Source: Heterotrichella gracilis | Taxonomy: Eukaryota > Sar > Xanthophyceae > Tribonematales > Xanthonemataceae | Length of the DNA stretch: 37,505 nt | Direction of reading: 5' to 3' | Assembly (NCBI GenBank): GCA_032358255.1 | Contig: JAULBX010027418.1 | Location: forward strand, 1 to 37,505 | Part shown: positions 1-37,505 of the stretch, one piece after another | Position numbering within the stretch: the stretch's first letter is position 1 | Layout: each line of letters begins with the position of its first letter | Notes under the pieces: model-generated | Databases searched by the model: none | Told to the model about the DNA's origin: nothing | The model's input: the letters and a program-made list of their open reading frames with translations, nothing else | Position numbers and translations under genes: made by a program

Positions 1-1210
1 CCGCCGGGCCCCCCACCGCGCCCCCGCCCGCACCACCACCACCACCCGCGGCCCCGCCCCCACAGCACCCACGGCGCTCTGGAGCGGTGGACACCCTATC
101 TTAGGGACACCGCGCTGCGCGTGTATGGCTCCATAGGTGCCTCGGTGCAGTTTGGCAAGTTCACGCGGCGGGTGTTTGACTTCACGTCTGCCTCTGCGCG
201 CCTGGATCTGGGTCTGATGTCGCAGGGGGAGGAGGGGGTTGCTGTGCGCACAGGTATGACCACGCATGTGCACACGTAATTTAGGTGGTTGCCTGGGTAC
301 GACGCGGGTTTTTTCATGGAAACCACTGGAAACCAGCCAGATTAGCGGCCAGCCTTGCAGTTTGGCCAGTTCACTCGGCGGGTGTTTGCTTTCATGTTTG
401 TGTCTGCTCGCCTGGACCCTGCGGGGTGTCGCAGGGGGATGAGGGGGGCGCTGTGCAGGTATGACCACGCATGTGCACACGCGTGCAGCTCAAGTGGTAA
501 TGTCATCCCAGCATTAGAACCAGAGCATTACACAGCCCCCTTCATGGCACATGCCAGCTGGCAACCACATGGCTGCAAGCCAGGACGACAATGACAATAA
601 CAGTGACAACCACTCCCGCAGGAGGTGACGGAGCGCTGGCTGCCTCCCCTGCCCGCCACCGCGCGTTCTCCCTTGAGGGCCGAGGCACATGGCATGCGCT
701 GAGCGTGTCGCTGGCGCAGCAGGTGTTTGGGCCAGTTCGGGCGCGTGCAGACTTCAGGTGAGGCACCGCCCCTCAACATGGCTCGGACTCAAACCACCTT
801 CAAACCACCCTGCCCTGCTACGCGTCTTATCCCCTTCCCCTGCCCCTCGGGGGATCCAAACCCTGAAACTCCAAATCCCACACCCTCCTACACCGCCTCT
901 GTGTTTGGACACGACTCCTCGCACACACCCCTGCTCCCCGGAACGCATTTAAACGCCCCCTGTCCTGACCGCCCCACCCCACTGCCCCGCGCCCTCCAGG
1001 TTTGCCCTCGACCCCGCGCACACCCCGCTCCCCGCTGAGCGCAACACCTTCAAGGGCCTGGTGGAGACAGCGGTGTCGGTGCGCCCGCAGCTGCTGGAGG
1101 CCGCCTACGGCGCCGACATGGTCATCCCGGGGACCGGCGGCGCGGCGCGGGCGGTGGTGTGGGTGTCGCCCACCCGCAGGGAGGCCATGGCGGAGCTGCG
1201 CCTGTTCTAG
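1..1210 (+). CDS. TGD4: TGD4-like chloroplast outer-envelope lipid-transfer protein, C-terminal part (5' end outside window)
   Basis: Three exons are visible: <1-253, 622-757 and 1000-1210, ending in TAG. All junctions are GT-AG and the phases agree (1 then 2). The protein reads through a motif VYGSIGASVQFGKFTRR, then ARLDLGL, then SLAQQVFGPVRARADFRFAL, and ends in VVWVSPTRREAMAELRLF. Set against plant TRIGALACTOSYLDIACYLGLYCEROL 4 as I remember it, the order and wording of these blocks agree (an FGS..F..GRF block, a QQVAGP..FRVDS block and a terminal SPKRKEGMIELRLF block). TGD4 is a beta-barrel, phosphatidic-acid-binding protein of the outer chloroplast envelope that works with the TGD1-2-3 ABC transporter in moving lipid from ER to plastid. 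The His/Pro-rich start may be linker or intron read in frame. The alignment is from memory, so the identity is good but not certain. Echo copies of two of its exons lie nearby (357-503 and 1277-1374). Confidence 0.68.
357..503 (+). repeat. Echo of TGD4-like exon 3' end plus donor, inside the following intron
   Basis: This stretch repeats positions 148-290 with many substitutions in the coding part. The splice donor and about 20 bases after it are identical (GTATGACCACGCATGTGCAC in both). It is a tandem copy with a spacing of about 210 bases that crosses the exon/intron boundary. It is not needed for the open frame, because splicing from 253 to 622 keeps phase. Confidence 0.85.
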
Positions 1211-3449
1211 CCTGGAACTTTATGAAGGCATCGCTGCAGCGCGCGGCCGTGATTTCTGTGAGCTGTGTGCGCGGCGGATATGGTTATTCTGGGGACTGAC
1301 GGCGCCGCGCGGGTGGTGGTGTGGGTGTGTCCCACCCGCAGGGGGCAACGGCGGAGCTGGGCCTGTTTCTAAGTTGCGGATAGGCCCAGTGCGTGTGACA
1401 CCCTAGGTTCCATCGCTGGGGCAGGAGGGTGGAGCGTCTGAGCGGGAGTGCTTCGGGGTGTGCATTTTGTGGGCTTCGTCTACCCAGTGTGTTGGTGGGA
1501 TGTCTGGCGTGGTGCGCCGAGAAAGGATAGCACATCCGCTGGAAGCACGCGTGACGCTTCCTCTTATTTAGGGTTTTTGGGTTGGGGTCGGTGGGGTGGT
1601 GGTGGTGTAGGGAATCAGGTTTTTGTATCAAAACTGTGGAGTTGCCCACCACCTATATTTACCTATATATTTCTAGGTGTTTTAGGGCTCAGGGTTTGGG
1701 GTTTGGCCCCTCTGAGAAAAGTGCAGATGGGTAAAACGGGAAAGGAACGGAAACAGAGGGGGTAGAACCAAGCAGCAGCAGGCAAAGCACAAACAGGACC
1801 AAACGGTGCAGGGGTAAGCTGGAAAAACAGCAGAACACAGAACAAGCTCAAAGCAAACACAAAGCAGCAAGACGAAGCAGACAAGGACAAACAAAGCAAA
1901 GGGTGAGCAGCGGACAAGCAGCACAACAGAAAGAATCAGGGCAGAACAGAAAAGCAGGTACAGGATGGGGGCACCCGGCAGCACAGTTTGGCCCCTGTGC
2001 ATAGCCTGCCCTTGTAGATGCCAGGAGCCATTTGCGGCAGCGAGTTCCCAGGGTGTGCAAGAGTGTTACCGACTGGATGCATATACCATGTTGTGACGGG
2101 GGAAGCTTTTGGGGTAGCCCTTGATGGCTACCATGCCATCAGCGTCATAGTGCACGTTCGTTTGCATGCTAGTCGTGGCTATGCATGTGACGGTGTTAGT
2201 GGATGTCCAGGTTGCAGCAGCAGCTGCCCAGCGTTTAGGGTTTGGGGTGTAGTTCTTAAAGCCTATGCGGTCAAAAGCCTCGAGCATGGAAGTCGCCCTT
2301 GCCCAGGCCACCGTTCAAGCCCACTTTTAAAGAAGTCTGTCATGGGGCTACCCGCCACACTTGCCGCAAGCAACCCCTAAAAGCCAGCCGCCAACGAAAC
2401 GCCTGGATAAAAAAAAACCCTCTTGCACCCCTGCGCGCATCCACACTTGCCCCTCCAAACTTTGTGACCCCCTTGCGCACACATGCCGTAGCCTGCCAGC
2501 CCAGGGGGTCTGGCTCTGCTTAAGAAACGCCAACGGCGATCCAGTCCACGGTTCTAACTGCTGGCCTCTACTGCAGTCGACGGCACAGGTTGTGCGACGG
2601 AGCGTTCAACCCGTCTAGCTGGAGTTCGAACGCATGAGTGGGCAGAGCAAGTAGGGTTTTGACAAAGGGTAGGAGGCGAACTGGCGCAGATGACGTGGCA
2701 ATTTGTACCGTCACGTGTACAGGGGCCTGACAAAACGATCGTACATTTCGGCATGTACCCGCGGACGTAATTCTTGCCCTGCCAAATTCGAGGGTGGTCA
2801 CCCTGTCATAAGGGCATTTCGACAGCATTTCTGAGGGGTCTGCCAGTTGTACCGGTCACATGGGCTTGTGTGGCCAGTGAACGGGTGCGCATATGAAGGG
2901 ACCGGCAGGACGCGCGCGGGCCAGACCAGGCAGCGCAGACGCGGCCGGCGGCGATAATGAATTTCCTTTTCGCGCTGGTTCGCGTTGAAAAAGCGAGGCA
3001 GCAGCGCCGCCGTCGGCGGCACCCAATATCTGGAGAGACCGGGCCGCTGCCTGCCAACCAACGCTTCACCCAGCAAGCCTTTTGGACAACAGAGGCGGAG
3101 CCTTGAAGGCTGAACTATTTCGTCAGACACACGGACTGCGTCCCATCGTGTTTGCAAGCCTTGTGACACCGCCTGTTCGCCGCATCCCGTTGCCAGGGGC
3201 GAGTACTCTGCGAGCAGGGGTGATACGCAAGATCATTATATCATAGCCATTTGCAGCGCCCAGCGGGGCTCCTAGCCAGCGGCACCGAGCCCGGACGAAG
3301 CACAGGGTCGTAGGAAAGGGGTCCATCGTGGGGTTTCTGTGGCTCTCGAGGGCTGATTATCCCTTCATGGGCTAAGGGGCTGTCAGCAGGCGCATTAGTT
3401 GCCCTGCACCCCTCCATCCCCCAGCCAGGGCAGCACCGCGAGGGGCAGA
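1211..3449. other. Intergenic region between the TGD4-like gene and the receptor kinase
   Basis: I find no supported gene. The open frames here have no recognisable motif and overlap one another on both strands. The start holds the 3' flank of the TGD4-like gene with its echo. About 1780-1990 is an A/C/G-rich low-complexity stretch of CAGAACA- and AAGCA-like words. Telomere-like words occur near 1682 and 2238. The promoter of the downstream kinase should lie in the last few hundred bases, but I cannot point to a specific element. Confidence 0.6.
1277..1374 (+). repeat. Degenerate echo of the last TGD4-like exon, after the stop codon
   Basis: The stretch reproduces the last part of the terminal exon (about 1116-1210), including the block coding VVWVSPTRR, but with frame-breaking changes: GTGTGTCCCACCC replaces GTGTCGCCCACCC. 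It lies in the presumed 3' untranslated region. Confidence 0.8.
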
Positions 3450-6400
3450 ATGCTGGCCAGGAGGCGGTGGAAGACGCAGCCCGGCTGTAAACGGTGGCTG
3501 CTGGTGGTGCACGTGCTGGTGTTTACGATTGGAGCGGTGAAGCGCACGAGTGGGCAGGTGAGCCGCTGCACGCCACCCACTCTTCGACAGGTGGACCCAT
3601 GCCAGCGAGGAGGTTTAGCGTGTCGGTGTTGCAGCACACGCCTCGACGGGGCGTGCAGGAGGTCTCGTTGCTGGACCTTTGGCGGCGGGTTGGGTGGTGG
3701 GTGTCGTACTGGTGTGGTTTTGGCTGCGGGATGTCACCTCGTGGTCTCAAGAGACAGAAGGTGGGCTCGCCATACCCCTTTTTGGCGATGGCAGCGGCTC
3801 GATCCAGGGGTCGAGCGGGTTGATGCCGTATTTCTAGTTCACTGCTGGTGACTGCAAGGGCAGCGGTTCGATTTGAGCGTTGGGATGGGTGGTGAGCATG
3901 GTCTGTGAAGCTACCTGGGGAGCAATGCATGCATATGCTTGCCTGTCCACCGGCGCCGTTCTATCTTGTGTGACAGCCGTCGTGACATTTAAGAAAGGTA
4001 CCACCTCTTGTCATAGGCGAGGCAAACGGGCGTTTGAGGTTGGCAAGGGCTTTTTGTGCGAAAGGGTTGCATGCCAATGGAATGCGCAGGGGCTAGTGGG
4101 TGGTGGTGGGCTTGCTCGACCAACAAGCCTCGTGCAATAACTAGCGTTGGTGCAAACCGGTAGGACCACCCTTTTTGCAGCTGGGTTTACCTTTTCTATG
4201 TCCGATTTTCCCTAGATGTTTTTAACCAACCCCTGCAGGACTTGGGACACACCTAGCCTGCCTCCTTTTGATACCCCCAGCAAAGAAACGCCAGCCCGTG
4301 CTGTCATCTTCCTCTGATAACCCACGCTTGTGTCCACATCCATCCCACCTGCACACCTTACCAAGCCGCACGCCCCTCTATGCACCCGCAACACCCCCTT
4401 CCACACCTCCCCCTTACCCCCTCCCTACCCACACCCGCGGCGAATACACCCCCACCCACCGCCACCCTGCCTTACCCTGTACGAAAACCCTCCAGTACCT
4501 CCACCCTGTCCAGGGCTAGGGTTTTAGTCACCCTCCCCCTCACCTCATCCCCCCGTGCACTCAACCCCAGCACACACCATTGTGGGCAGCTATTTAATCC
4601 AATCTTCAGCAGTACAGCCAGACGAGCAGTCACTTTTGCACAAAGCGTGCACCAAGCCTGCCTTGGCGCACATAGTATACCAGACAACTTTCACTCCACA
4701 CCCGCGTCTTGCTTGCTCCCAGGCCACCTCCTTGTGAGCAAAACATGGCGTCATGAGCTATGCCAAACTCGCATTTTCTTATTGCTTCGCCTAACACCCT
4801 CCCCCTCGCTTGCGCCCCCAGGACACCCCCTGTGACACCAGCCTGTGGGACCAGCTGGAAGCGCGCCACGAGCTGAACCAATACACGCGGCGCTATGCAG
4901 CCTTTGGGCTGTCAGATACCCTCAAAGACCCTAGCAACCTGGTCACGCTGCTGGTGGCGACCAACGAGGCGATCATCAGCTGGGTGGGCAGGAATGGTGC
5001 GTGATTAACACAGAAATTGACAGGGACTTTTGGTGCGTTTGGTCGTGTATGGGTAAAGGTCAAATAGGTTATCATCGTATATAGCTGCTTGTCATTGTGG
5101 GGTTCATGTTTCTCACGTACACAGGCATAATTGCACAGTGATTTGACTTGAGCAACCACCTAGGATAGAGAAAAGGGTCGTTAGTCCGCTGGGGCAGCAT
5201 GACTCCACACTGCTGTTGCGGAAATGCCGCAGCCGCGCACCCTTTTCCTCGCTTGACTAATCCCCCCTTTGCCTCCTGCAGACGTGCAAGTGACCAATGT
5301 GGACGTGCTGCACACCGCCGAAGCCGCCCTCTACACCGTGCTGCCTGGTTACTACTCCAATGCCAGCCAGCTGTTGGATGCGCAGGTTGTGAACACAGCC
5401 CTTGCGTACCGGGCGAATGGGGACTACCCGCTCCTGTTCTTGCCGGATGATAGTGCGGAGGTGAGGCGGGGATTGGTGGTGGTGGTGGTGGGAGGGGAGG
5501 GGGGAGAGTGCGGTGTGGGATACCCGCTCCTGTTTTTGTGGAGGGACAAGAGGTGGGGGTGGGGCACGGGGGGCTGCTTTGCGTCAGAGGGGGGTGAGTA
5601 TGGGGACGAGAAGGGTGGGAGCGTGCTAGTTGTTAGTCGGGGGGGGCCTACTGACTTTTGTTGGGGGGTTTAGGTTGGGCCATGGTGGGTGATGGTGGGT
5701 GCTGGGGTGTGGCGGGTAATGGGAGGACGTGTGGGCGTGGCGCACCATGTGGTGGGCGGTGCGGCGGGAAGGGTCCATCCCCACACCCTTGCATAACCCT
5801 ATATTCAAAACCCTAATAAAACCCCTTTTCCCCTATCTCCTCCCAGGGCGTGCAGGTGGTTGGGCTAGGCCACAGCCCAGACAGCGTGGCCCGGGTGACT
5901 GAGGTGATCCGGGTGTGCGGGAGCGGCGCCATTTGGATAGTGGACAACGTGCTGCTACCCACCTTCAGCTACCAGGCGCTTGACCAGCTGAACAACACCA
6001 TCACGCAGGTGGAGGTGGAGGTGCGTGGAACCCTAAACCCTAGGAAGAACGTAACCCTGCTATCCAAAGCGCTGGCCCTCAAGCCCAGCCACACGGGGGA
6101 TCAATGAACCATAAATTGTGAGAATATTAAATCCTAGGCTAGTGCCCACCTTCAGCTACCAGGCGCTGAACAACACCGTCACTCTGGTGCCTGGTGGAGG
6201 TGCGTGGAACCCTAAACCCTAGCAGTATGGAACCCTACATCCTAGGCAGATGCTGGGCACTTTCCATTGTATCATAGAACAACGATGGCCAGCCTTAACC
6301 ATGGTATGTCTCCACCATCAACCCCATGCCCCACATCCACGGGTTGTGCATATCCCCGCCTGACCCTCTCCCCTTTCCCTCTCGTCTTGTGCCCCAATCA

Positions 6401-9400
6401 CTGACCTTTGACATCCCCGCCTGACCCCGCTCCCTTTTCCCCACCTGCAGCTGTGCAACCCCGAGAATGGCACCCTGTACAATACCCTAGAGGGTTTGGA
6501 CGACTACAAGTTCCAGCTGGCCACCTACTCAAGCTTCAACTTCACAGAGGCACAGGAGCCGGGGCTGGCGGTGACCTCCTTTGCGTTTAATGATGCTGCT
6601 CTCACCCCCTTCCTGACTGTCACCGGTGAGACATGCAAAACCCTAAATCCTTGGAACCCGAAACCCTAAAGCCATGATCTATTTAACCCTATGCTGGGGC
6701 TGGCGGTGACCTCCTTTGCGTTTAATGATGCTGCACCCAACTCCCCTTTGTAGTGGCCACTAGTGAGGCATGCAACATCATGTGGCTGGCAATGACCTCC
6801 TGTGCCTTCCCTATGATGCTCCACTCACTCCCTCCACTGGTGAGACAGGTGGTTCTCTAAACTGTATAACCCTTTCAAGGGCTTCCTAGGGTTTGCTGTT
6901 CTTAGAGGCTTTCCCTCCCACCGGCATGTACCCCCCACTTTGCCACGCGCCACTGCCCATTAAATGCCCAACCCTCCCCTCCTCCCCAGGGTTTGACTTC
7001 TTCTCCGCCCAGCAGCGCTACCCTCAGATCCAGGGCCAGGTGGCATACAGCCCCCCCCCCCTCTTTACCCCCCCTAACTGCACCACAAACCGTTGCCTAA
7101 CCAAATCTCTCCCCACCCCCATCTCAAATTCTCCCCCGTAACACCCAATTTGTGCCCCTTCCCCTTGCAGGGTTTGACTTCTTCTCCGCCCAGCAGCGCT
7201 ACCCCCAGATCCAGGGCCAGGTGGCATACAGCATCCTCCCACAGCCCCAGTGCTGGCAGGACCTACTGGCCGCGCGCACGTACCCTACCCTGCTCTCGGA
7301 AACCCTACATCAGAACTACAGCCAGTCGTTCGGGGTTTTGGGGGACGGCCAGGACGTGATCTATCCCCTGAGCGGTCCCAGCAATGTGACGGGGATGGTG
7401 CGCGCCTGCGCGAGCGTGATTTACACGATCATGGACATCACCTTTCCCGGGGAGGATGTGATGACCGCCGCGGGAATCAGCAGCTATCCCCCGGTGGCGC
7501 TGGCGCCTGTGCCAGGTAGGGTTTGTGAAATCCCTTGAAGTTACCTGAAACCCTACCCTAACGGGCCGCTCACGCCCGTGCTGGTGGCGAATCCTTGCAT
7601 CAACCTTGGCAAAACCCACTCAAAAGGGCTAGATTGCTTCTTCCCCCCTGTTCACCGCCACTGGGTGCCTTATCTTGAATCCCTAGCCAGTGCCCTAGGC
7701 TCCTGCGCTGAACCTTGGCAGCTCCAAGGCCCTACACCCCATGCCCCAAACCCCTAAACCCTAATCTCCTCTCCCCTTGCACACCCACAGGGGAGGTCAG
7801 CTTCTGCATCAACCTGGATAGCTCCAAGGCCCAGGCTATCGCCACGCTACAGCAACGCTATGCAGACTACAATGGCCAGGCCCACGCACCCGCACCCCCC
7901 ACTCGCCCCTCCCCATCGATCTTGATGTCGCCTTCCCCCCTGCCCTCCCCTGACAGGTAAGGGTATATATTACTTTGGCACCAAGCCTTCAGGGCACCAT
8001 GTCATTCACACCTGCATGCGCACCAAGGTGTACATACCAGAAGGCTAATGTGGCTAGTACAAGCGGTAAACGTAAATCCTAAACCCTCATCAGGTTCTTG
8101 TGGGCAAGTTTTGGGTGCTGGCTGAGTGAAGGGGCCAATTTAATGAAGGGCCCAACTTAATGAAGGGCCCAATTTAATGAAGGGCCCAATTTAATGAAGG
8201 GCCCAGTTGCATCAACCTCAGCAGAGTGAAATAATTTCCACCATGTGGCTGCAAAAATCCCTATGTAGGTCCGATAGGCCATTCACGCTGTTCTAACCCC
8301 TTCCCCACTTGTTCCCGCAGCAATATGGCGCCACCCACACCCACCACCACCACCTCCAGCACCAGCACCACCCTGTATGTGGGGGTGGCTGTGGCTGTGG
8401 CTCTTATCCTGGCGGTGGGTGCGGCTGTGGCTGTGTTTGTGGTGCGGCGGCGGCGGCGGGCAGCGGTGGGGGTTGAGGACAAGGGGGGCGATGTGGAAAA
8501 GGCAAATTGGGGAGGGTCAGTGAAGGGTTGTTCGGAGGAGGGGAAGGCGGCTGGGGAGGTGGGTGGTGGGGAGGTGGATTGCGGAAGGGGCGGTGGGGGG
8601 TGTAGTGTGTGGATGGGCAGGCGTGCATGCGCATATGTATGGTTGTGTTTGTTGTTTAGGGTTGCAACGTGCATGTAATGTATGTGGAATTGGCTTCTGG
8701 CATCCGGGAACGGTCGCTCTTGCACATTACCCTCACCTAGGGTTTTCAATCGCATGACCGTAACTCAGGGTTTCCCGCAGGACCCTGCCAACGCCCGCAC
8801 CTCCAAGTCCATCGCCGGCAGCCTGGGATCCCAGGACCAGGACCAGGGCGATTATGTTTCCAGAACAACTTCCACTGTCCCCAGATTCACCTCCACCACC
8901 ACCCCCTACCAGCCCTCGCCCTACACCTCCAGCGGGAGTGGGGACTCGCCCCCCCACTCCGACCCCACCACCGCCACCACCACCACCAACGGGGGGGTGG
9001 CGTACGCCCTCTCCCGGCAGGGCTCCAGCAAATTGACCCGACAGGGGTCGGGGGTGCCGCCTCTGGGCCCGGGGGCGCCCCCCCGCACCCCCTTCCAGGG
9101 GGCCAAGAACCCCTTCCACAGTACCTCCCAGGAGGCCTCGGGGGGTGCCAGCGTGGCCACTGCGGACAGCAACATGGCGGATATGCTGTCGCGGATCAAC
9201 TCGGGGCAACGTGAGTGGTGTTTTAGTGGCTAGGTTTGAGGATTCCCGCTGTTGACCTGGCTTTGCCGTATGCCGTGGCTGACGAGATTGGGCCAACTTG
9301 CGTGGGTGTGGATCGTGTTTCTATGGAGGTGAAAGATTGTGGTCTGCATGCCACGGTGAAATCCGCTTTTGTTGCTGATCCGTGTTGCTGATCCTTAGAT

Positions 9401-12083
9401 GGGTTTTGATAGAATAACATAATAATGATGAAAAGCCACCCACTAAGGCGTCCTGATTCCGTCCCCTTTCGCTTTCCACAGTATCAACCTTCCCCAGCGA
9501 ACCAATCGAGGAGCTAGATTGGAACATCAGGACTGAAGAAATCCAGTTCTGCATGAACCCAGACAACTCCTACTGGCTGCTGGGTAACGGGGCGTTTGGC
9601 AAGGTAGGGCTCGCAGGGAAACCCTAAACCCTACATCCTAAAACCCTAGATATGAAGGTTGACATGAGTGGGGTCTGCATGGGCTTGGACAATTCGTATT
9701 GGCCTGCTGGGTGTATGCTGGGACGTCTGGCAAGATAGGGTGGACCTGTACCAGACAGAGAACCCTGCTTGAACCCAAAGCCCTATTCTACACCCTGCTG
9801 AAAACCCTTGAAACCATACCCAAAACACCCCCACGGATGTACAAGGCCATTTGGAAGGGCGGCATGTACGTGGCGGTCAAGGTCTTTCCCACACAGGACC
9901 TGTACCAGACAGCAAACCCTACCATTAACCCTACATAGACCCCAAAACCCCACCTTTCACAACCCTGCATTCTTCAAACCCCCGGAAACCTCTGAACCCT
10001 ACCTGAACCCTTTTGCAGGTATACAAGGCCATCTGGAAGGGCGGCATGTACGTGGCGGTGAAGGTGTTCCCCACACAGGACCTGTACCAAACAGAGAAGG
10101 GCAGGTCGCTCCTCCTCAAGGAGGTCACGATACTCAAATCGTGTCGGTCGCCCTACATCGTGCAGTTTTTGGGCGCCTGCATCCAGCCCGATACCATCAT
10201 GATCCTTACAGAGCTGATGGGTGGGGGCAGCCTGCAGACCGCCATCGGGAGGGGGATCGTCAACTGGTACAACAGGTGCGGTTTTGGAGTTTTTGGTAGG
10301 GTTTTGTGGCGGGGTTTTGTGAATGGGTACAGCAAGCTGGGTTTTTTGGTCATGGGGTCGCTGTATTGGCGCTAGCCGTGTGGCGGTGCCCAGGCTTGTG
10401 GTTTACCATGTGTGAGAACCCTAAACCACAAACCCTGCCCATTGCCGGGCGGCCTTGAGGATATATTGCTTATGTTATGGGTTATCTCCCGGCTTCATGG
10501 TACCCCTCCACTGGACACCAAACCCTAACCTAGATTCTATACTTCCCAGGGGTGCGGGCATCGCGCTTGACATCGCGCAGGGCATCCACTACCTGCATGA
10601 ACGCAACGTGCTGCACCTGGACATCAAGTCAGCTAATATCCTGCTGACTGAGACTGGTGGGGCAAAGGTGCGTGACAACCATGAACCCTAAACCCTTTGT
10701 TTGCCCCTCGTAAAACCCTGCAGCTGGGGACCCTAAGGGTTTGCGATCGTGCACCTGTGACGAGTGGATGACTGTACGCGTGCCAGCGACACCGTCCTGT
10801 GGGGGTTTGGTGCTGGGCGGGGGAAAGTGTGTTGCCTCACAGCTGTGTGAGCCTTGTGCGGCTCACACGACCCTGCGTAATACGCCCTTTAGGGTGGCGC
10901 ATACCACCCAGCCCCCCTGTGTGGCCAACACAAACCCAATGGTCACAATGCCTAACAAGAAACCCTTGTTGTAGGTTGCTGACGTGGGCATGGCGCACAT
11001 CATCCAGTGTACCTGTGTTGCCAGCATCCCCGGGAACCCTAATGGAAACCCTGTCAGAACCTGTCAGAAACCCTAACCCGACTCAAAAACCCTCGTTGCA
11101 GGTTGCTGACGTGGGCATGGCGCACATCATCCAGTCCACCTATGCGCACGAGGGGTCTGTGGAGATGAAAGGCACGCTGGCATGGATGGCACCGGAGGTC
11201 ATCCTAGGTGCGCACTGACCCTCTAGGGTTTTGAACCAGGGTGTTGGGGTGCGCAGAAACAGTACATGCAGGCAGGGTCCCATCCTGCAACATCTGCCAC
11301 TGGCTGTTTCTGTAGGGTGTTGCAACTTGCGAGCTAGGGTTTTCAACGACCAAGGCTGGTGTGTGCAGCTTTAGCAAATTTGGGGTGCCACATTAGGGTT
11401 TCTTTGTGGTATCTCTAGGGTTGCCCTTACACTTTCCCTCCCCTTTCAGGCCCCAAGGTGAGCACCAAGGCTGACGTGTACAGCTTCGGGGTGCTGCTGT
11501 GGGAGATTGTGACGGGGGAGCGACCACTCAGGCACTCCAGACGCGTGCTCAAGTAAGGAAAAACCCTGCACCAAACCCTGCGAAAACCCTCGCTCTAAAT
11601 AACTCTGCCGTAGGCGCGCGTGGGTTCCTAGGCGAGGGGTATCTTGAAGTTCCCCTGATAATGGCGTGGCTTGCATGCCATTACCCCAATCGTGACCCAG
11701 GCTCCATGTCATTACCCCAATCATGACCTAGGCTCCATGTCATTACCCCAATCATGACCGGCTCCATGTCATTACCATTGGAATGTTCCTCTTCTGCGCC
11801 ACCCCCACACTTTACTCCCAGTCCCGCTTGTAAGCAAACCCTGGAATCTCTCTGGATTCAGAAAAGCCTCCAAATGCACATGTATGCGAGAAGCCTGGAT
11901 GTTCATGTCTTGTGCAAACCCTAACGTGTGGTTCTCCCTTTCTGCCCCAGGGTCCCCGAGGATTGCCCCTCCGAGGTCCAAATGCTCATCGATTTGATGA
12001 CCCAGCCGGACCCCGACGCGCGCCCCACAGTACTGGAGACAATTGAGATCCTTCGATGCCTCCAGCCGGTATACCTAGAGTAG
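3450..12083 (+). CDS. Receptor-like kinase with two extracellular FAS1 (fasciclin) domains
   Basis: Exons: 3450-3557, 4822-4996, 5282-5460, 5847-6020, 6451-6625, 7171-7515, 7791-7956, 8321-8519, 8781-9210, 9482-9603, 10019-10275, 10550-10667, 11102-11207, 11450-11552 and 11951-12083. They sum to 2790 nt, or 929 residues, with every junction in phase. Residues 1-36 look like a signal peptide (basic start, then WLLVVHVLVFTIGA). FAS1 domain 1 spans about 37-212 (LVTLLVATNEAI, then IWIVDNVLLP). FAS1 domain 2 spans about 213-385 (AVTSFAFNDAALTPF, then VIYTIMDITFPG). Several N-glycosylation sequons (NAS, NNT, NGT, NFT, NYS, NVT) fit an outside location. A membrane span at about 459-482 is followed by five Arg. 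A Ser/Thr/Pro/Gly-rich linker leads to a kinase domain from about 684: GNGAFGKV loop, VAVK Lys706, HLD801 with Asn806, DVG 819-821, WMAPE848 and DVYSFGVLLWE. It is TKL/RLK-like. Exon 1 is the least certain, resting on signal character and phase. Ligand and substrates are unknown; FAS1 domains usually mediate adhesion or wall contact. Confidence 0.85.
5517..5545 (+). repeat. Echo of receptor-kinase exon 3 end
   Basis: It repeats the region around TACCCGCTCCTGTT from 5428-5450 with substitutions, in a G-rich intron, downstream of the real exon end at 5460. Confidence 0.65.
6141..6224 (+). repeat. Echo of receptor-kinase exon 4 end plus donor and telomere-like word
   Basis: It copies about 5955-6045, including CCCACCTTCAGCTACCAGGC, the donor GTGCGTGG and the AACCCTAAACCCTAG word that follows. 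Internal deletions remove part of the exon (a GACCAG hexamer, for example). The copied block therefore carries both the splice site and its telomere-like tail. Confidence 0.85.
6694..6850 (+). repeat. Two further echoes of receptor-kinase exon 5 end
   Basis: The first (6694-6775) is nearly identical to 6555-6600 over GGGGCTGGCGGTGACCTCC and TTTGCGTTTAATGATGCTGC, then decays. The second (6783-6850) is more diverged but still carries a CACTGGTGAGACA donor like the real one at 6626. The different divergence suggests duplications of different age. Confidence 0.85.
6990..7051 (+). repeat. Near-identical echo of receptor-kinase exon 6 start with its acceptor
   Basis: It has 62 bases with one mismatch to 7171-7232, and is preceded by a usable acceptor (CCTCCCCAG). 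It would be a recent duplication. If the upstream acceptor were used, the retained sequence would run into a poly-C stretch and break the frame, so it is a possible source of mis-splicing. Confidence 0.9.
7697..7735 (+). repeat. Degenerate echo of receptor-kinase exon 7 start
   Basis: It resembles the CTGCATCAACCTGGATAGCT and CCAAGGCCC part of 7805-7835. A weaker trace occurs at 7590-7612, and another after the exon at about 8208-8222. Confidence 0.55.
8129..8208 (+). repeat. 17-bp minisatellite in a receptor-kinase intron
   Basis: The unit GGGCCCAATTTAATGAA is repeated about 4.6 times with one or two substitutions. It is intronic, between exons 7 and 8. Confidence 0.9.
9660..9925 (+). repeat. 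Two facing echoes of the ATP-loop exons in one intron
   Basis: 9660-9741 is a decayed copy of the end of exon 10 (about 9525-9610, the Gly-loop region). 9838-9925 is a close copy of the start of exon 11 (10019-10100; GGCGGCATGTACGTGGCGGT is kept and ACACAGGACCTGTACCA is shared). An extra ACCTGTACCAGACAGAGAA fragment sits at 9744-9764. The intron therefore holds the end of the upstream exon and the start of the downstream one. Confidence 0.85.
10319..10345 (+). repeat. Echo of receptor-kinase exon 11 end and donor region
   Basis: GTGAATGGGTACAGCAAGCT and the GGTTTT run after it mirror the exon end GTCAACTGGTACAACAG and the start of the intron at 10259-10295. Confidence 0.6.
10975..11016 (+). 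repeat. Echo of receptor-kinase exon 13 start with a TAG acceptor
   Basis: GTTGCTGACGTGGGCATGGC continuing to CATCATCCAGT is identical to 11102-11140 and is preceded by TTGTTGTAG, against TCGTTGCAG at the real exon. It copies the DVG-motif exon start and diverges after about 40 bases. Confidence 0.9.
11346..11392 (+). repeat. Decayed echo of receptor-kinase exon 14 start
   Basis: It resembles the ACCAAGGCTGACGTGTACAG and TTCGGGGTGCTG part of 11460-11500, with substitutions and an insertion. No acceptor remains. Confidence 0.65.
11673..11785 (+). repeat. 31-bp minisatellite in the last receptor-kinase intron
   Basis: About three and a half units of CATTACCCCAATCATGACC followed by TAGGCTCCATGT, with small deletions in the last unit. 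It appears non-coding. Confidence 0.85.
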
Positions 12084-16404: not shown

Positions 16405-16566
16405 AGACCACCAAGTAGGGGCTGTCCACCACCGCAAACCCTGTCGTAGGGTCTGACCGTCTAATCCATCAGGTACTAGCTGTCCCGCACCGCAAACCCT
16501 TTTTGGGGTGCAAGAAAACTGCGGGCTCAATCCACCAGGTAGGGGCTGTCCAGCACCGCAAACCCT
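16405..16566 (-). repeat. Three tandem echoes of the GSH2 C-terminal codons and stop, in its 3' flank
   Basis: Units at about 16527-16566, 16461-16500 and 16407-16442 repeat the end of the real coding sequence (16593-16636), with a spacing of about 66 bases. On the minus strand the nearest unit still reads FAVLDSPYLVD followed by a stop. The second has an internal stop and the third is diverged. Each unit begins with a CAGGGTTTGCGG-like word that offers an AG. Confidence 0.9.
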
Positions 16567-16592
16567 GTCTTAGGGTGGAAGAAGTCCCAGGC

Positions 16593-19500: not shown

Positions 19501-19721
19501 CCCCAACCCCCATCCCACACCCCCCACCTGCAGCAGCGAATCGCTGGGCGCATCGATCATGTAGTCCGATCGGTTGATTGCCAGCACCACCTCGCTCCCC
19601 CTGCGCATGGCCCTTGCCTCTGACGTGTCGCGGTGAAGCTCCAGCAACGCAGCCTGGGGAACGGGGGAGGGGGAGGGGGTTGATACGAACAGTGCGGGCT
19701 TTGGCTGACATAATTGTGGAC

Positions 19722-19796
<75 letters not shown>

Positions 19797-26600: not shown

Positions 26601-29600
26601 CTGCTGCACTCCTTGGAGGCGCCATCCTGGGATGCACCAAGCTGCTGGACATACCCCTGTTCAGACCACTGTCCTTTCCCCCCTCCCTATTCCATACCCT
26701 CTTCTTTCCTCCCGTTTCTGATTCCCCCCATTTCCCTTCCCCCTCTCTCTCCTTCACCTCTCATTCTCACCTTCATTCCCTCTGCAGGTGGCGCGGCGGC
26801 ACTCCTTGGAGGGGCCATCCTGGGATGCACCAAGCTGCTGGACACACCCCTGTTCAGGTCGTTCTACACATTTGCACTGGGGCAGCTGTTCATGTTCCTA
26901 TGGTAAGGTTGGTTTGGGTCCTAGGTTTATTAGGGTTTCATGTGATTGTGTTGTAGACTTGAGTATTGGCTCGCTCTACGTGTTTGCAGTGAGCAAGTGT
27001 CCATGTTCATATGGCGTTGGAGCTATGGCTGTGGTTTAGGGTACCATGGCTGTGGTGTAGGGTCTATTGTACACATCTGCGACTAGGAAAGTGTTTTCTG
27101 CACACAGTAAGGACATGGGTTAAGGGGATAGGGTTCTGGTCCATGCCGTGCCAAAGTGGTTAGGGTCTAGGGTTTCTCTTGCAAAGTATGTTGCCATGGT
27201 TTGCAAACTATCTGATTGAAGTCATGCAATTACTTTTGCATTGTGCATTAAACCGGTACCGGATACCAAACAGTATGGATACCTACAATAAGCCCATCAT
27301 CAGCAAAAACAAGCTGCAATATGCCAGAAGACCAATGACGCTTAAATCCACGTAAATAATCAACATGGCAACAGCTGTCTCACGGCATGACTCGTGATTA
27401 TCAAAAGAGGCACTTAACCATTGTGTATTTGCAGCTTGAAGTGCCAGGAAAGAGCTGCGTGGCGCCGCATGTGCAAGACCGACTGCTAATCTGGCTGTAT
27501 TGCTGGAATGCATGTAACTAACTAGCTAACTAACTATTTGCAGCTTGAAGTTCAAGATCATCGGAGGCGGTGCGCTGGCGTGCATCGGTCTGACTGCCAT
27601 TGCATCCCTCTTCTGGGCACGTGGTTGGCCAAAGGCACTGTCGGCAGGTACGTCCTATGTGTCACACCAGGGGTGTTAATATATGAACCAGGAAGGGGTG
27701 GTTTATATATTAACACCCCTGGTTTATATATTAACACCCCTGGTCACACTGAGGATGGGGTGGGGGGAAGGGGGGGGAGGAGTGTGGCTTGGTGTGCTGT
27801 GTGTGTGCCTGCATGGGCCCTCCATCCTTGTAGTTTTGCTTTGAAACGCACGCTTGGGGGCATTGCGTTGACGTGCATCGGGCCGACTGCCATTGTCTCG
27901 CGCTTCTGGGCCTGTGGTTGGCCAAAGGCACTGCCGGCAGGTATGCAACGTGTGCGTTGGCAACAATTGTGCATGAAAGTGCCATGCTTTTCATTCGCAG
28001 CAAGGTACCATATGTAGATGTAATCGAAAAGGGAACAATGCATCTGAAAGCACCAGGTGTATATTGCCCAGGTTGCGATTTGCACATCAGGCACAGAGTT
28101 GCATGGACACATCGTGGTAATGATCCCACTTATTTTGAAATTCACTGCTGTGCAGGAAATATAGTGTAATTGCACGTTGCGAGGTCTTTTATTCATTATC
28201 ATTTTTCAATAATGGAGCCACTGGTATGCTTGCCGCTGGTCGTATTATATTAAATTCGTGTACCGAGAACGAAGTGGATGGCCACATCGCTGTGTTTTCT
28301 ATTAAAAATATATACAATAATTTTTTTTTAATATGCCGCAGGCTGCTACGCGCACACCAAGCACGAAGTTGACAGCCAGATGGCTGTGTTCTTTGATAAT
28401 TAGTAATTAATAATTCTAATATTCTCAATTTGCCGCAGGCAAAAGTGCGCACACCAAGCATGAGGTTGACAGCCACATCGCTGCGTTCAATATTAGTAAT
28501 ATTTATTAATAAGTTTTTAATTTGCTGCAGGCAAAAATGTGCACACCAAACACGAGGTAGACAGCCACATCGCTGTGTTCTGGGTCATCTTCATGCAGCC
28601 GCTGCTGTTTGGGAGCGTGGGCGCCAGCATCAACTTTGACATCATCACGGGGTCCATCATCATGAAAGCCATCGGAGTCACCCTTGTTGGTAAGCACAGC
28701 AAAGGGGCGCATTGTTTTGGGGGGCCAATTTTACTTGTATCTTGTACGAATGCTACTTATTTATTTGCAGTACAGCGGATGGGCGCATAGTCTTGGCAAA
28801 CACTCAAAATCAGACATTGGCGATCTTACTTTTATCTTGTGCGAGATATGTGCAATAAAACAGATTTAAATGCAGTGGATGCCCGGGGGTGTAATGCATG
28901 TGCAGGAGTACTCACCCGCAGATGTTGGTCTTGGGGGATGTTTCCAATGTTGGGTCCCTGGGGTGACATGGATTTTTCCTGTGCAGGCATGGTTGTGCGC
29001 CAGATCAGCACATGGCTGCTGCTGCACAAGTCGCCAATCACCCCCACCGAGCGCCTCTTCCTGGCGCTGTCATGGGTGCCAAAGGTGGGTCCATGTGGGT
29101 CGCTCAGCAATTTCATAAATGCATTTCAGCAAGTTTAGCGGTTAGTCTTGCACATTGCACCCCAAGCAGGTTGGCCCTGGCAAATTTTGGGCTATGTTTA
29201 TTATTAATATAAATCTGAGCACATGGCTGCTGCTGCACAAGTCCCCAGTCACCCCCACCGAGCGCCTCTTCCTGGCGCTGTCATGGGTGCCAAACGTGGG
29301 TCGAGCAGTACATTTAAAGTCATGCATTTCTGCAGTACAGCCAGGTTAGCGGTTAGTCTTGCACTTATTTGCACATGGGGCGTCAAGCGGTTTGGTCCTG
29401 GCGGTGTTCATGCCACGTAATCTTCACTTTTTTTTTTTTTTCCAGGCCACGGTGCAAGGTGCGCTGGCCACCGCCCCGCTGGACATTGTCGAGGCTGTGC
29501 AGTCCGGGGCGCCAGATTCGCCCTACAAGGAGCAGCAGATACTGTATGCCCAGGAGCTGCTGGCTGCTGCGGTGGTGTGCATCCTGGTCACCGCGCCTTT

Positions 29601-30094
29601 TGGCCTGCTCATGATTACCCGGGGGGGGAAGAAGATGCTGACAAAGGTGAGGCTGCGGGTGGAAAACAGAAACTTTGTCGGACAACTTACAAGATTTACA
29701 AGACAATAAACATGCACCATTGTCCAGAATACTGCATTATCCTGCTGGAGTGGGGTGCATCCTGGTGACTGCTTCTTTTGGCCTGCTCATGATCACAATG
29801 GTTGTGATGTACAATGTAATGTCAAAAATAGTTGCAGTGTACAGCACGTCACCTCCAACATGTAACCAGGGGCCAACAGCCGGCTGGCGCTGTTTGGATT
29901 TGAAGAATTAAGCCTGCCATTGATTTCTTTTCTGTGTGCTCATCCAGACTGATCCAACGACTGCCGAATTCGCCTTTGATGACATCGATTCCTCGATTGC
30001 AAAGGAATCTGCGGGCATCCCAGGGGGGGACCATCATGTTCAACAAGCCCACGGCGGGGAGGACATAGAAAAGGTGTCTGCAGCTGCAGCCTAG
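23604..30094 (+). CDS. CPA2-type Na+/H+ antiporter of the NHA/SLC9B family (first exon not found)
   Basis: Visible exons: about 23604-23852 (5' limit uncertain), 24456-24620, 25445-25655, 26130-26276, 26788-26902, 27544-27647, 28531-28689, 28987-29084, 29446-29646 and 29948-30094 (TAG). All phases agree. From residue V at 23652 this gives about 515 residues, against roughly 540 in animal NHA2, so little is missing. Family blocks: KLPPLLGQLLVGMLLENLP, then ILMRAGLEID, then GGFLMAPLSPTVVITSMLAL, then GYGLKHGIPSLAMAA, then MQPLLFGSVGASI, then LALSWVPKATVQGALATAPL. It should be a polytopic membrane protein exchanging Na+ or Li+ for protons. The ion-site motif reads GIDVVV where animal NHA2 has FDDIL, so the second Asp is Val. 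The C-tail is short, acidic and hydrophilic. Most exon edges are echoed in the introns, and exon 6 has a complete second version at 27834-27940. No in-frame ATG lies just upstream of 23652, so the start must be in an unseen exon. Confidence 0.9.
23920..24165. repeat. Irregular ATGTGATCATGTCATC-type tandem repeats
   Basis: Words built on CCATGTGATCATGTCATC and CGATGATCA recur about six times with variation, interrupted by the exon echo at 23951-23997. A similar TGATTACA/TGATCACA-rich stretch lies at 36470-36660. Confidence 0.6.
23951..23997 (+). repeat. Near-identical echo of the antiporter's first visible exon end plus donor
   Basis: Forty-seven bases with one mismatch to 23812-23858, including the CAG/GTGAGG donor. 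Confidence 0.9.
24277..24325 (+). repeat. Echo of antiporter exon 24456 start with acceptor
   Basis: TTGCAGTGAAAGCTCCCCAC continuing to CTCCTGGTGGGCATGCTC resembles 24451-24502, with several substitutions. It is followed by a diverged tail. Confidence 0.75.
24763..25040 (+). repeat. Two echoes of antiporter exon 24456-24620 end plus donor
   Basis: 24763-24845 is nearly identical to 24533-24632 but lacks a short internal block (the part coding ATILMR). 24962-25040 keeps that block with substitutions (GCAGCCATTCTCATGCGGGC). Both keep the ACACG/GTG donor. They alternate with CCCTAAACCCT-type words. Confidence 0.9.
25252..25390 (+). repeat. Long decayed echo of antiporter exon 25445 start with acceptor
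   Basis: ATCACAGGCCTTCAGGCGCG followed by a GGGACCACC..CGCGTGGG pattern follows 25436-25560 for over 120 bases with many substitutions, including a premature stop (TGAACC). Confidence 0.8.
25790..25864 (+). repeat. Echo of antiporter exon 25655 end plus donor
   Basis: CTCAGCCCCACGGTGGTCAT continuing to CTATGGCCTCAAGCACGGTG is nearly identical to 25587-25661. One difference changes CGCGGC to CGCTGC. Confidence 0.9.
26580..26675 (+). repeat. Echo of antiporter exon 26788 start with acceptor
   Basis: It copies 26775-26862 with the TCCCTCTGCAG acceptor kept; only scattered changes occur until CTGTTCAGA, after which identity stops. It still reads GGAAALLGGAILGCTKLLD. Confidence 0.9.
26960..27015 (+). 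repeat. Decayed echo of antiporter exon 26902 end
   Basis: CTACGTGTTTGCAGTGAGCA and then GTTCATATGG follow the real TCTACACATTTGCACTGGGG and GTTCCTATGG. No donor is left. Confidence 0.6.
27657..27750. repeat. AT-centred inverted repeat, possible hairpin or small MITE
   Basis: The left arm GTCACACCAGGGGTGTTAAT at 27661 is inverted by ATTAACACCCCTGGTCAC at the right end (about 27729-27746). A second copy of the right arm (GGTTTATATATTAACACCCC) lies at 27699-27718. The core is TATA-rich. It sits between the two versions of antiporter exon 6. Confidence 0.8.
27834..27940 (+). CDS. Complete alternative copy of antiporter exon 6 (candidate mutually exclusive exon)
   Basis: The stretch is bounded by its own acceptor (CCTTGTAG) and donor (GCAG/GTATGC). 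It is 107 nt long against 104 nt for the exon at 27544-27647, so both have the same length modulo 3 and the same boundary phases. It reads ALKRTLGGIALTCIGPTAIV, then SRFWACGWPKALPA without a stop. Using either exon alone keeps the antiporter frame. Using both, or neither, shifts it, and using both meets a TGA within a few codons. Over the 28 aligned codons from GGA/GGG onward I count 5 synonymous and 7 replacement differences, including Leu to Arg. That does not prove selection; it may be a young duplicate drifting to decay. Confidence 0.55.
28257..28490 (+). repeat. Array of three echoes of antiporter exon 28531 start
   Basis: Units at 28257-28300, 28338-28396 and 28436-28488 precede the real exon at 28531, with a spacing of about 95 bases. 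They share GCACACCAAGCACGAAGTTG-like wording and GCCACATCGCTG. Units two and three keep a TGCCGCAG acceptor. Each is followed by an AT-rich spacer of TATTAGTAAT type. Real unit and echoes form a four-unit array. Confidence 0.9.
29214..29300 (+). repeat. Echo of antiporter exon 28987-29084 with donor, part of a ~215-bp tandem duplication
   Basis: AGCACATGGCTGCTGCTGCA and the following CACCGAGCGCCTCTTCCTGG are identical to 29008-29070. The first 14 bases of the exon and its acceptor are missing. The intron after it (AGCGGTTAGTCTTGCAC at 29138 and again at 29347) is duplicated too, so the unit runs over exon and intron. Confidence 0.9.
29749..29800 (+). repeat. Echo of antiporter exon 29446-29646 internal/3' part
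   Basis: GTGCATCCTGGTGACTGCTT and TTTTGGCCTGCTCATGAT match 29576-29617 with few changes, then identity stops. Confidence 0.85.
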
Positions 30095-32350: not shown

Positions 32351-32574
32351 GTTTGCGCTCTCCATGCCTACTTTTAGCGTGTAGGGTTTAGGGTTTGCAG
32401 TCGTCCCTGGCCACATCTTCGACCAGGCGTAGCACCCGGCAGTACGGGTGTACAAGCCGGCTGCTGTCAGAGACTAAAACCATATGCAGCTATATTTTGC
32501 TGTGCATGGCGTATCCTGCGGTATTTACCTTTCAGCGCCCCCCTGCCTGCCTCCTCCCTTGATACCCTGAACAC

Positions 32575-32646: not shown

Positions 32647-32676
32647 CTGCCACCCAATATGGATGTGGGTGGAGCT

Positions 32677-32772
32677 GGCGGCGGCGGCGACGGCGGCGAC
32701 GGCGGCGGCGGCGGTGGTGGTGGTGGTGGTGGTGGTGGTGGTGGTGGTGGTGGTGGTGGTGGTGGTGGTGGT
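32677..32772. repeat. (GGC)n followed by (GGT)20 microsatellite
   Basis: A GGC/GAC-rich stretch up to 32712 is followed by 20 perfect GGT units at 32713-32772. It lies just upstream, on the minus strand, of the putative exon at 32575-32646, so it could be intronic or code Ala/Thr. Confidence 0.9.
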
Positions 32773-32809
32773 GTGGTCTGGAAGGGGGGGTGATGTGGGT
32801 CAGGGGAGG

Positions 32810-32850
32810 TTTAGGGTTTAGGGTTCAGGGTGTAGGGTTTAGGGTAGCCT
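32810..32850. repeat. Interstitial telomere-like cluster
   Basis: Five consecutive TTTAGGG-like units (GGTTTAGGGTTTAGGGTTCA and on), the densest such cluster in the window. Similar clusters lie at 32273-32300, 17099-17120, 17196-17222 and 36203-36222. Confidence 0.85.
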
Positions 32851-35183: not shown

Positions 35184-37505
35184 CTATGCCCCACCTGATG
35201 GTGGGGGCACTGCCTTGGCGCCATCGGAGACAATCTCGTTCTTGGTCAGGCTGCAGAGAGGTGGGGGCAGGGTTTAGGGTTTTGAGTGTGTTTTTAGGGT
35301 TTCAGGGGTGAGCGGGGGAAAAGGGGTTGATATCATCCTAGGTCGGCCTGCAGCGGGGGGGTGGAGAAGGACAACCAAATTTCCCAATCTCCCACCCTGC
35401 TCGGGATTGGAGGAAGGGGAGGGTGTGGGAGAAAGGGTGGTGCGGGGTGCATGCGCAGGGTGGGAAATCAGAAAATTGGAAAATATGCAAGTGGGGCCAG
35501 AGGTTGCTAGGAATGGAGGTGGTGGTCAATGGCTGGGTGCAAAAACAAGTCCAGGGCGGAGAACGCCTTGGGGAAACTTGATCAATATATGAATCAATTC
35601 AATATATTCATTATGGCCGCCAGTCCATGCACCCACATGCCCAGGCACGCACGGATGCACCCCCCACACGCCCACACACCCATCCAGGTAGGGTCTAGGG
35701 TACCAGCTCAGCCTCTGTGGTTGGGTCGTCCATCTTGCCACAGCCCTACCATCTGCTGAGGGCCCCCGGGTCCATTCAAACTCATCACACCTCTAATGCT
35801 CCTTCCCCAACTCGCGCACCCCCCCCCCCCCTACCACCCAACAAACACCCACAGAAAGCGCACCCCTCTCCCCCCCCCCGCCCACTCACCCATCCACATC
35901 CAGGTCCACACTCCCATAGGGCACCAGCTCAGCCTCAGTGGTTGGGTCATACATCTTGCCATAGCCCAGTATGCGCTCGAGCACAGACAGGTGCTTAGGG
36001 TTCACGGCGGGGCCGGTGTAGGGTTTCCCATTGAGGAGGTCCAGCCAGCGCTCATCGCCTTGGAGGAGGTCCAGGGCGCCGGTGTCTGGAGGGGGGGAGG
36101 TGGATGGAGGGGTTGCAACTTGCGTGTGCAAGGGGGGTTATTACGCGTGTGAGAGATTGGGTGCGTGGGTGTAAACCGAGCACAGGGCACCTGTGAGGTG
36201 CAGGTTTTAGGGTTTAGGGTTTGGCCTGGTTGACCAGTGTAGGGTTTATTGTTAAGCTAGTTAAGCAGCGCCAGCCAGCGCTCGTCGCCTTGCAGGAGGT
36301 CCAGGGCGCTGTTGTCTGTACAATGGAGAAATAATGTGCGATGAGAGATTAAAGTTTTATTGAATTTGTTGTTGCTTATTGGAGGTCCAGGGCACATTTG
36401 TCTGGGGTGGGGGGGGATTGGGGGAGTGTGAGCGCGAGTGTGATCATGAAATGGGTGAGCACCAGTTATGCAAGTCCACCATTGATCATGTTTGATGACA
36501 CTTGATTACATCTGGTTACAAGAAAATGTACTTGATCACATGGGAAGTTGCACCTTCCTAACCTGGGATCATGAGGATAGTGAGCACGATCCCCGCCAGG
36601 CCACAATTGATTACAATTGATTACATTTGATTGCACTGAATCACATTTGTAATTCCACCCCCGCTCACCTGGAATCATGAGGATGGTGAGCACAATCCCC
36701 GCCAGGCCACAGAATGCTGAGATGTAGAACTTGACTTGGTTGTCCACCAGCCCAAACACCACACCAGCAACCAGCGCGCCGCCCTTGCCTGCAGGGGAGG
36801 GGGAGGGGGTTGCGGGTGGTGAGGGTGGCCGTGGTATGCAGTATCAGCGTTGCATTAAGGCGGACCTTATTGCTAGAGGTCTTTTTGGGGTTGGCATCTG
36901 GCAGCGTATTGTGTTGGACAGGAGTGCCTGGCGGTTGGCGACTATTGGTGGATGCATCCCTCCGGGGCCACGCATGTAACTGTAACTGTAACTGTAACTG
37001 TAAATGAGGGCGGCCGTGACAAGGGAGGCAATGAGTGAGGTGCCTAGGCGGGGAGGGAACTGGCCCAGGCCCTGATCATTTCGAACTGTGCAAAGGTGTG
37101 CACGCCAAAACTAAAAGCGGAATAACTATCAGTGTCGATAACAATACGGTCAATAATCAATATGGCCCTGGCTCAAGTAAAGATAATGTTCGAGGGGGCA
37201 TTGCAAAGCAGAGTGTACATTGGCATTGCATAGACTACATAGGTAAGCAGTCAGTGGCAACATTTAGTTTGTTCTTTGATTGGGTTCCTATTGAATTGCC
37301 TGCTGCAAAGCTAAGACATGCACAGGGCTGTGCATGTCCCCGCTCGCCTCAGATGCACCTGGCTGTTACCCTTCACATAGAACCCTAAACAACCTAAAGG
37401 GGGGGCGCAACTCGCACCTGTTGCCGCGGCGATTCCGTGGCTCATGGCCCGCATCTCTGTTGGTATGAGCTCAGCTGGCAGCAGCCATGTGGTTGCATTT
37501 GGACC
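35184..37505 (-). CDS. PHT1/PHO84-like phosphate:H+ symporter (MFS), C-terminal part; 5' end outside window
   Basis: Minus-strand exons: >37505-37418, 36788-36669, 36085-35890 and 35250-35184 (TAG), with GT-AG introns and phases 1, 1 and 2 that agree. The first reads GPNATTWLLPAELIPTEMRA then MSHGIAAATG, continued by GKGGALVAGVVFGLVD. This is the loop and following helix typical of the phosphate:H+ symporter family, where PHO84/PHT1 proteins have GPN.TTF..P.E.FP..R...HG.SAA.GK.GA. Next comes a hydrophobic last helix (AFCGLAGIVLTILMIP). The tail then reads DERWLDLLNGKPYTGPAVNP, LGYGKMYDP and a polar end LTKNEIVSDGAKAVPPPSGG. It should take up inorganic phosphate at the plasma membrane or another membrane. 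The subfamily (the green-algal PTA type is my preference) cannot be fixed from the C-terminal part. Confidence 0.82.
35685..35760 (-). repeat. Echo of the phosphate-transporter exon 35890 end
   Basis: TACCAGCTCAGCCTCTGTGG and TTGGGTCGTCCATCTTGCCA resemble 35920-35965 with few changes, and CCCATCCAGGTAGGG recalls the real donor side. It lies downstream of the exon on the minus strand. Confidence 0.85.
36250..36405 (-). repeat. Two echoes of the phosphate-transporter exon 36085 start
   Basis: 36262-36318 copies GCCAGCCAGCGCTCGTCGCC, then GAGGTCCAGGGCGCTGTTGT and a TCTGTAC acceptor region. 36380-36405 is a shorter copy (GGAGGTCCAGGGCACATTTG). Both are upstream of the real exon on the minus strand. 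Confidence 0.85.
36540..36605 (-). repeat. Echo of the phosphate-transporter exon 36669 end
   Basis: CTGGGATCATGAGGATAGTG continuing to GATCCCCGCCAGGCCACA matches 36669-36713 with few changes; the donor has become GGTTAG. Confidence 0.85.
36975..37003 (+). repeat. (TGTAAC)n microsatellite
   Basis: Nearly five perfect TGTAAC units in the first visible phosphate-transporter intron. Confidence 0.9.

Follow-up and report, generated by a model that had tools for sequence, protein, structure and literature searches.

Copies of exon edges in the introns of Heterotrichella gracilis and their probable origin by tandem duplication across coding borders

Why should pieces of exons recur in the introns beside them? 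The question is raised by a stretch of 37,505 nt from the xanthophycean alga Heterotrichella gracilis (contig JAULBX010027418.1 of assembly GCA_032358255.1, positions 1 to 37,505; contig C491 of the sampled genome of 68.5 Mb and 903 contigs), the whole of which is referred to here as the window. A preliminary description of this DNA had listed partial copies of exon starts and ends in the adjoining noncoding sequence, which we call echoes. Intron lengthening is mostly attributed to transposons. In this genome, 45 of the 222 introns tested contain exon-derived material from local duplication, and introns appear to lengthen by duplicating parts of the exons beside them. We consider it likely that the echoes stem from recurrent contiguous tandem duplication across coding edges, followed by decay of the exon copy; exchange of sequence between exon and copy is a less certain part of this reading.

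The echoes in the window are real. For three genes modeled by hand (a receptor-like protein kinase, a glutathione synthetase and a Na+/H+ exchanger; Table 1), 23 of 67 pairs of an exon and its adjacent flank scored higher than 99% of 1158 non-adjacent pairs. With the genes predicted by our own hidden Markov model (HMM) finder, 94 exon-flank tests in the window yielded 29 positives, against 0.5% expected from foreign flanks, and the inverted-copy control, run in the window and outside it, was positive once in 539 tests, which rules out chance. Comparison of the window with itself by BLAST (basic local alignment search tool) gave 25 non-overlapping local duplications, of which 19 paired coding sequence (CDS) with noncoding DNA, four were mixed, one joined CDS to CDS and one was noncoding; most of the direct ones paired coding with noncoding DNA at a spacing of 100-230 bp. 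The example singled out earlier, 6990-7051 against 7171-7232, indeed has exactly one mismatch in 62, and the faint one at 11346-11392, which falls under our main threshold, contains 23 nt that match kinase exon 14 without gaps (score 17; p 0.002 by Markov shuffling). An initial estimate of about forty copies is possible given that some edges were copied several times (at 16.4-16.6, 16.9-17.2, 24.7-25.1 and 28.3-28.5 kb), but it exceeds the number that can be counted. Nor does the statement that every multi-exon gene is affected, apart from the small one at 14759-15880, hold in full: the predicted minus-strand gene at 31.7-32.8 kb yielded a single borderline match (score 18.8) that is not at an edge.

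The window was picked for its richness, and its rates carry that selection bias. Elsewhere in the genome we examined 20 fetched stretches amounting to 187.5 kb (L014 and L021 without a predicted gene), where all genes are predictions by the HMM finder. Positive exon-flank tests numbered 35 of 445 there, a weaker signal than in the window but to be set against the same 0.5% in foreign flanks. Counted per intron, for introns no shorter than 40 nt whose bordering exons have 60 nt or more, echoes were found in 20 of 39 introns in the window and 25 of 183 outside it. The loci are unequal in echo rate (chi-squared 33, 17 degrees of freedom), and 6 of the 18 testable outside loci had no match at all. 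One stretch (L009, G000:C320:20001-30000) holds a long array of 125-126 bp units within predicted coding sequence, which is another kind of local repeat; this locus supplies two of the 35 outside matches, and the one with a spacing of 497 belongs to the array. Another (L021, G000:C331:60001-70000; 35.5% G+C, no predicted gene) is unlike the other fetched stretches and may be organellar or foreign.

Of 64 exon-flank matches in all, 54 were edge-anchored and entered the residual-homology and codon tests, and 52 of these had a usable intron part. The rule that copies of an exon's start lie upstream of it and copies of its end downstream was borne out, with the near edge abutted in 54 of 64 matches and the far edge alone in none; such sidedness is what tandem duplication produces by its geometry. 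Starts and ends were echoed about equally (28 upstream, 36 downstream). The unit measured 66-231 bp in 59 of 64; a dip in the spacings at 140-160 nt (2 of 64) is too weak for a claim. Coding ends at stop codons were copied as well (1274-1367; 16408-16592), and splice sites are therefore not required; copying across exon borders, as in the original description, is supported, but that description tied it too narrowly to splice junctions. Kinase exon 13 has a young echo and, judged by eye, an older one farther out, the pattern expected of recurrent duplication at one edge. Divergence of the exon part in the hand-modeled genes is graded, from about 2% to 26%, and spacing is variable (the divergence table omits exon 1 of the glutathione synthetase, and the codon-position test set frames independently). 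With such a graded series within one genome, unit size, decay rate and splice-site fate become directly measurable.

We propose that the genes of this alga repeatedly undergo contiguous tandem duplication of short units, for the most part of 66-231 bp. A duplication that runs from an exon into the neighboring intron, or past the stop codon, would keep the original coding edge working and would add one unit on the noncoding side, where the added exon piece, presumably non-functional, would decay. The duplications could originate in the repair of staggered breaks or nicks, or in template switching during replication. In plants, tandem duplications reportedly arise from paired nicks or staggered breaks, and their unit size and direct orientation would fit the echoes, although we know of no link between such duplications and exon edges. 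That echoes are born by contiguous tandem duplication has good support in part of the set and is plausible in the remainder. Among ten cases aligned, several echoes keep to one diagonal beyond the splice site and on into the intron. Measured against junction-matched unrelated introns, homology of the intron part exceeded z 3 in 16 of 52 echoes, and in 13 of 25 with an exon identity of at least 0.88; echoes of exchanger exons 2, 3, 6, 8 and 9 and of kinase exon 4 are among those above z 3. Introns with an echo have a median length of 398 nt, against 285 nt for those without, and of 228 nt once the unit is subtracted.

A number of observations weigh against this reading. Intron homology fell short of z 3 in 36 of 52 echoes, and 35 of the 52 intron parts score under all 60 simulations, so that insertion with filler is possible for some echoes. 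A related idea is that copying favors exon sequence when an echo is born, as in repair synthesis that uses the exon or the pre-mRNA as its template, with filler in the place of an intron duplication. The echo of kinase exon 6, in which high identity is combined with undetectable intron homology (z -0.1), would be understandable in this way, as would the scarcity of noncoding-only events described below. However, several echoes share donor hexamers or diverged intron stretches, and the roughly equal echoing of starts and ends does not point to a splicing product; we regard exon-biased copying as unlikely.

The remaining difficulties come from simulations in which random tandem duplications were introduced into the same sequences, with constrained exons and all else evolving freely, and were recovered and classified with the same BLAST procedure. 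In the observed data, one event was counted per overlapping cluster, 7 CDS/CDS pairs were set apart, and two finder-called "exons" in exchanger intron 3 that are echoes were unmasked by hand; k denotes the decay rate of the intron relative to the exon piece. Noncoding-only events made up 6 of 61, where 59% were expected at k = 1 (p about 1e-15), and 5 of 37 outside the window (p about 1e-8 at k = 1). Recent edge events cover a median of 0.44 of the unit (n = 21), against 1.0 at k = 1. Raising k to 4 gave 30% noncoding-only events and a coverage of 0.76, and at k = 6 the values were 21% (p 0.022 over all events and 0.2 for those outside the window) and 0.64. When decay was simulated under identical match selection, k came to 4-6 for the 15 most similar echoes, to about 3 for the next 10 and to 1.5-3 for 27 older ones. 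At an exon identity of at least 0.92 the intron part scored 0.23 per nt, against 0.76 expected (n = 15). The intron difference lies largely in gaps, and some of the excess decay may be due to slippage in simple sequence of the introns. On the exon side, residual homology outside the strict core had a mean z of 1.0 (Wilcoxon p 0.0004; 14 of 54 above 2), relative to foreign introns that, unlike those used for intron homology, were not junction-matched. It occurs mostly at weak cores and is therefore explained by uniform old divergence; at core scores of at least 40, 3 of 13 exceed z 2, and one of these is the L009 array.

Plain neutral decay after random duplication fits badly. The view that tandem duplication across exon borders is the simplest explanation thus stands in part: direct orientation, edge anchoring, intron homology in part of the set and the greater length of echo introns speak for the duplication itself, but not for randomness followed by neutral decay. 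To suppose that duplications elsewhere are lost leaves the scarcity of the noncoding-only ones unexplained, because these should be harmless. It could still be that ordinary random duplication and neutral decay operate in introns that are far more prone to insertion and deletion, the exon pieces being more visible as one copy is conserved and the sequence stable. This we consider quite possible, if somewhat improbable. It accounts for direct orientation and edge anchoring, the codon pattern is compatible with a neutrally evolving copy of an exon under constraint, the older echoes need an intron rate merely 1.5-3 times higher, and outside the window the class counts at k = 6 are not significantly off. 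It does not account for the deficit of noncoding-only events relative to k = 1, in which detection bias was simulated, or for the low intron score at high exon identity. Moreover, the echo itself sits in the intron, so a 4-6-fold difference in rate between it and the sequence next to it is unexplained.

Under recurrent duplication with exchange, exon and copy might trade sequence by local gene conversion or unequal exchange, which would prolong their similarity. The exon would act as a fixed template, selection opposing any conversion by the echo, and the halves made of intron would drift on both sides, lose homology first and drop out. Homogenization of the echo by the exon is our favored, though still tentative, candidate, and the residual homology beyond the cores does not directly reveal conversion tracts. 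If such exchange does occur, introns would be shaped by concerted evolution with their own exons, which would also matter for gene prediction and cryptic splicing. One could go further and see exons as standing templates, recurrent duplication and homogenization keeping fresh-looking edges in the introns and making exon borders the main site of intron growth, but in this general form the proposal is doubtful.

Another potential reason for the presence of echoes is that they are functional, as backup or regulated splice sites or as alternative exon ends under selection. The splice dinucleotide GT or AG is retained in 32 of 47 cases; divergence would predict 36.4, so retention is no higher than expected, and the earlier suggestion of backup splice sites is unsupported. 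Mismatches at codon positions 1, 2 and 3 number 148, 162 and 243 in the 54 edge-anchored echoes, a 1.58-fold third-position excess as expected for a constrained exon and an unconstrained copy, and 9 of 75 gaps have a length that is a multiple of three, so the coding constraint expected of duplicated alternative exons was not seen. In favor of function, loose settings of the HMM finder turned several echoes into exon calls, and tighter settings gave two such calls. In echoes with an identity of at least 0.88 the mismatches are 18, 25 and 47, a 2.2-fold third-position excess that is about as high as a neutral copy would show and that also counts against the reading we prefer; some of the most similar echoes may be mildly constrained. 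Tests of codon positions, gap lengths and splice sites gave no clear sign of selection for or against the copies. On these features of the sequence the echoes look non-functional, and on the same three grounds we rejected functional backup sites, a role for the echoes that seems very improbable.

Least probable of all, to the point of being negligible, is an assembly or haplotype artefact. Artefactual copies should be near-identical, yet the exon parts diverge widely and their spacing varies; in allelic chimaeras third positions should dominate the mismatches, whereas they contribute 47 of 90 at an identity of at least 0.88. Both were rejected for these reasons.

Single duplications across a coding boundary have already been published. 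In the potato RdRp gene, a single tandem duplication across an intron/exon border was verified with DNA reads and RNA (PMC4974935). As outlined in that report, the duplicated unit crosses the border, as it does for part of the echo set, and one event gave a new spliced intron and an extra exon; in H. gracilis there are many events per gene, old and young, and the exon piece apparently stays within the intron. The AGGT model of intron gain by tandem genomic duplication, in the form given in a review (PMC3443670), likewise involves local direct duplication of exon sequence beside splice signals, but there the unit becomes the new intron, with both splice sites from the duplicated AGGT. We rejected this model for the echoes, as no unit comes within 12 nt of the intron length in any of the 45 echo introns; one weak near-fit, a 129-nt intron with a unit of 132, lies outside these 45. 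Introners resemble echoes in adding intron sequence at large scale, also in algae, but are described as dispersed families (PMC9860276), whereas echoes copy the host exon locally and in direct orientation. They too were rejected: echoes match their own exon, and the echo of kinase exon 6, probed singly with 311 bp around it, matched the genome at its own locus only. Gene-wide probes, with 40 candidates scored for each, found kinase exons elsewhere and one family resembling short interspersed nuclear elements (SINEs). The partial gene duplications described in a study on MSH1 comprise whole exons, not edges (PMC10487979). Our literature searches, with subscription journals mostly outside their coverage, found no report of exon-edge copies as common intron content, nor of such prevalence.

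Table 1. Genes modeled by hand and echoes detected in the window
Feature	Position	Strand	Remarks
Receptor-like protein kinase gene	3450-12083	+	15 exons (3450-3557 to 11951-12083), hand model, open frame; exon 8 donor provisional
Glutathione synthetase gene	16593-20808	-	9 exons; phases of exon 1/2 and 8/9 joints provisional
Na+/H+ exchanger gene	23044-30094	+	11 exons, 514 aa; Pfam PF00999
Echo of exon end 146-276	356-481	+	spacing 210, 83% over 132
Echo of CDS end across stop codon (1112-1206)	1274-1367	+	spacing 162, 84% over 95
Kinase exon 4 end, donor and intron flank included	6145-6236	+	intron homology z>3
Kinase exon 5 end, two echoes	6693-6775, 6784-6833	+	
Kinase exon 6 start	6987-7059	+	1 mismatch/62; intron homology undetectable, z -0.1
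Kinase exon 8 (exon end provisional), weak and doubtful	8534-8602	+	score 20.2, 76%
Kinase exon 10 end, weak	9674-9734	+	80%
Kinase exon 11 start, without acceptor AG	9840-9912	+	93% over 73
Kinase exon 13 start with TAG	10960-11017	+	older copy farther upstream, by eye
Kinase exon 14 start, faint	11346-11392	+	p 0.002
Glutathione synthetase CDS end repeated beyond stop codon, 66-bp units	16408-16592	-	
Glutathione synthetase exon 8 end, several echoes	16943-17218	-	
Glutathione synthetase exon 6 end	18200-18282	-	GC in place of donor GT
Glutathione synthetase exon 5 end, weak	18646-18733	-	77%
Glutathione synthetase exon 3 end	19777-19862	-	overlaps CTG run
Exchanger exon 2 end with GTGAGG	23950-23997	+	98%, spacing 139; rest of unit is diverged homology
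Exchanger exon 3 start and upstream intron	24190-24330	+	
Exchanger exon 3 end, two echoes	24763-25055	+	
Exchanger exon 4 start with CAG, old	25261-25377	+	
Exchanger exon 4 end	25785-25860	+	96%; intron homology beyond weak, z 2.6
Exchanger exon 6 start and 47 nt of intron	26548-26664	+	
Exchanger exon 6 end, weak	26971-27013	+	77%
Exchanger exon 7 end	27856-27943	+	spacing 293
Exchanger exon 8 start and acceptor, 92-bp units	28262-28530	+	
Exchanger exon 9 end, donor and intron	29218-29364	+	exon part 2 mismatches/77
Exchanger exon 10	29742-29796	+	ends 28 nt before exon end
Echo of exon end 35870-35967, predicted minus-strand gene	35660-35746	-	
Echo of exon start 36041-36088	36271-36318	-	spacing 230
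Echo of exon end 36603-36711	36498-36605	-	spacing 105

The kinase was identified by Pfam PF07714/PF00069 on the C-terminal 291 aa, and the glutathione synthetase by PF03917 and PF03199 on 388 aa (exons 2-8). Among the 30 homologues of the exchanger protein listed, from 8000 candidates scored, the top match was a EukProt protein (47%); the nearest named organism was Chlamydomonas sp. UWO 241 at 45%, followed by Myrmecia bisecta at 39%. Judged by its proteins, the window thus looks like DNA of a green alga. The HMM finder was trained on the three hand models and then re-trained on the fetched sample. On its own training genes it recovered 12 of 15 kinase exons and 11 of 11 exchanger exons exactly.

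Arrays of CCCTAAA begin within 7 bases of the starts of contigs C70, C140, C526, C609, C717, C770 and C824, and because of this position CCCTAAA is probably the telomere repeat. In the window and the fetched loci, telomere-like 7-mers are enriched in introns, with 306 clusters in 88.4 kb of intron, against 25 in 58.9 kb of exon, 62 in 55.3 kb of intergenic DNA and 58 in shuffled introns; they may mark past break repair or serve as a splicing motif. Between loci, these motifs correlate with echoes (Spearman 0.62, p 0.005), and echo introns are richer in them (p 0.0009), but within loci the association has p 0.24, and the link is therefore not claimed.

Three other repeats lie in the window. A perfect CTG repeat of 24.7 units (19723-19796) overlaps the glutathione synthetase exon 3 echo at its end, and a GGT repeat of 22 units (32713-32777) lies in a predicted minus-strand coding region. 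A SINE-like repeat with a (CTAA)n tail occupies 27440-27536, and among the matches listed for a 7-kb probe it occurs in at least 39 other places at 93-99%. Its 5' side is shorter than in the copies in L025 and L027, and the target-site duplication, about 17 nt long, is a repeat of the acceptor plus the start of exchanger exon 7.

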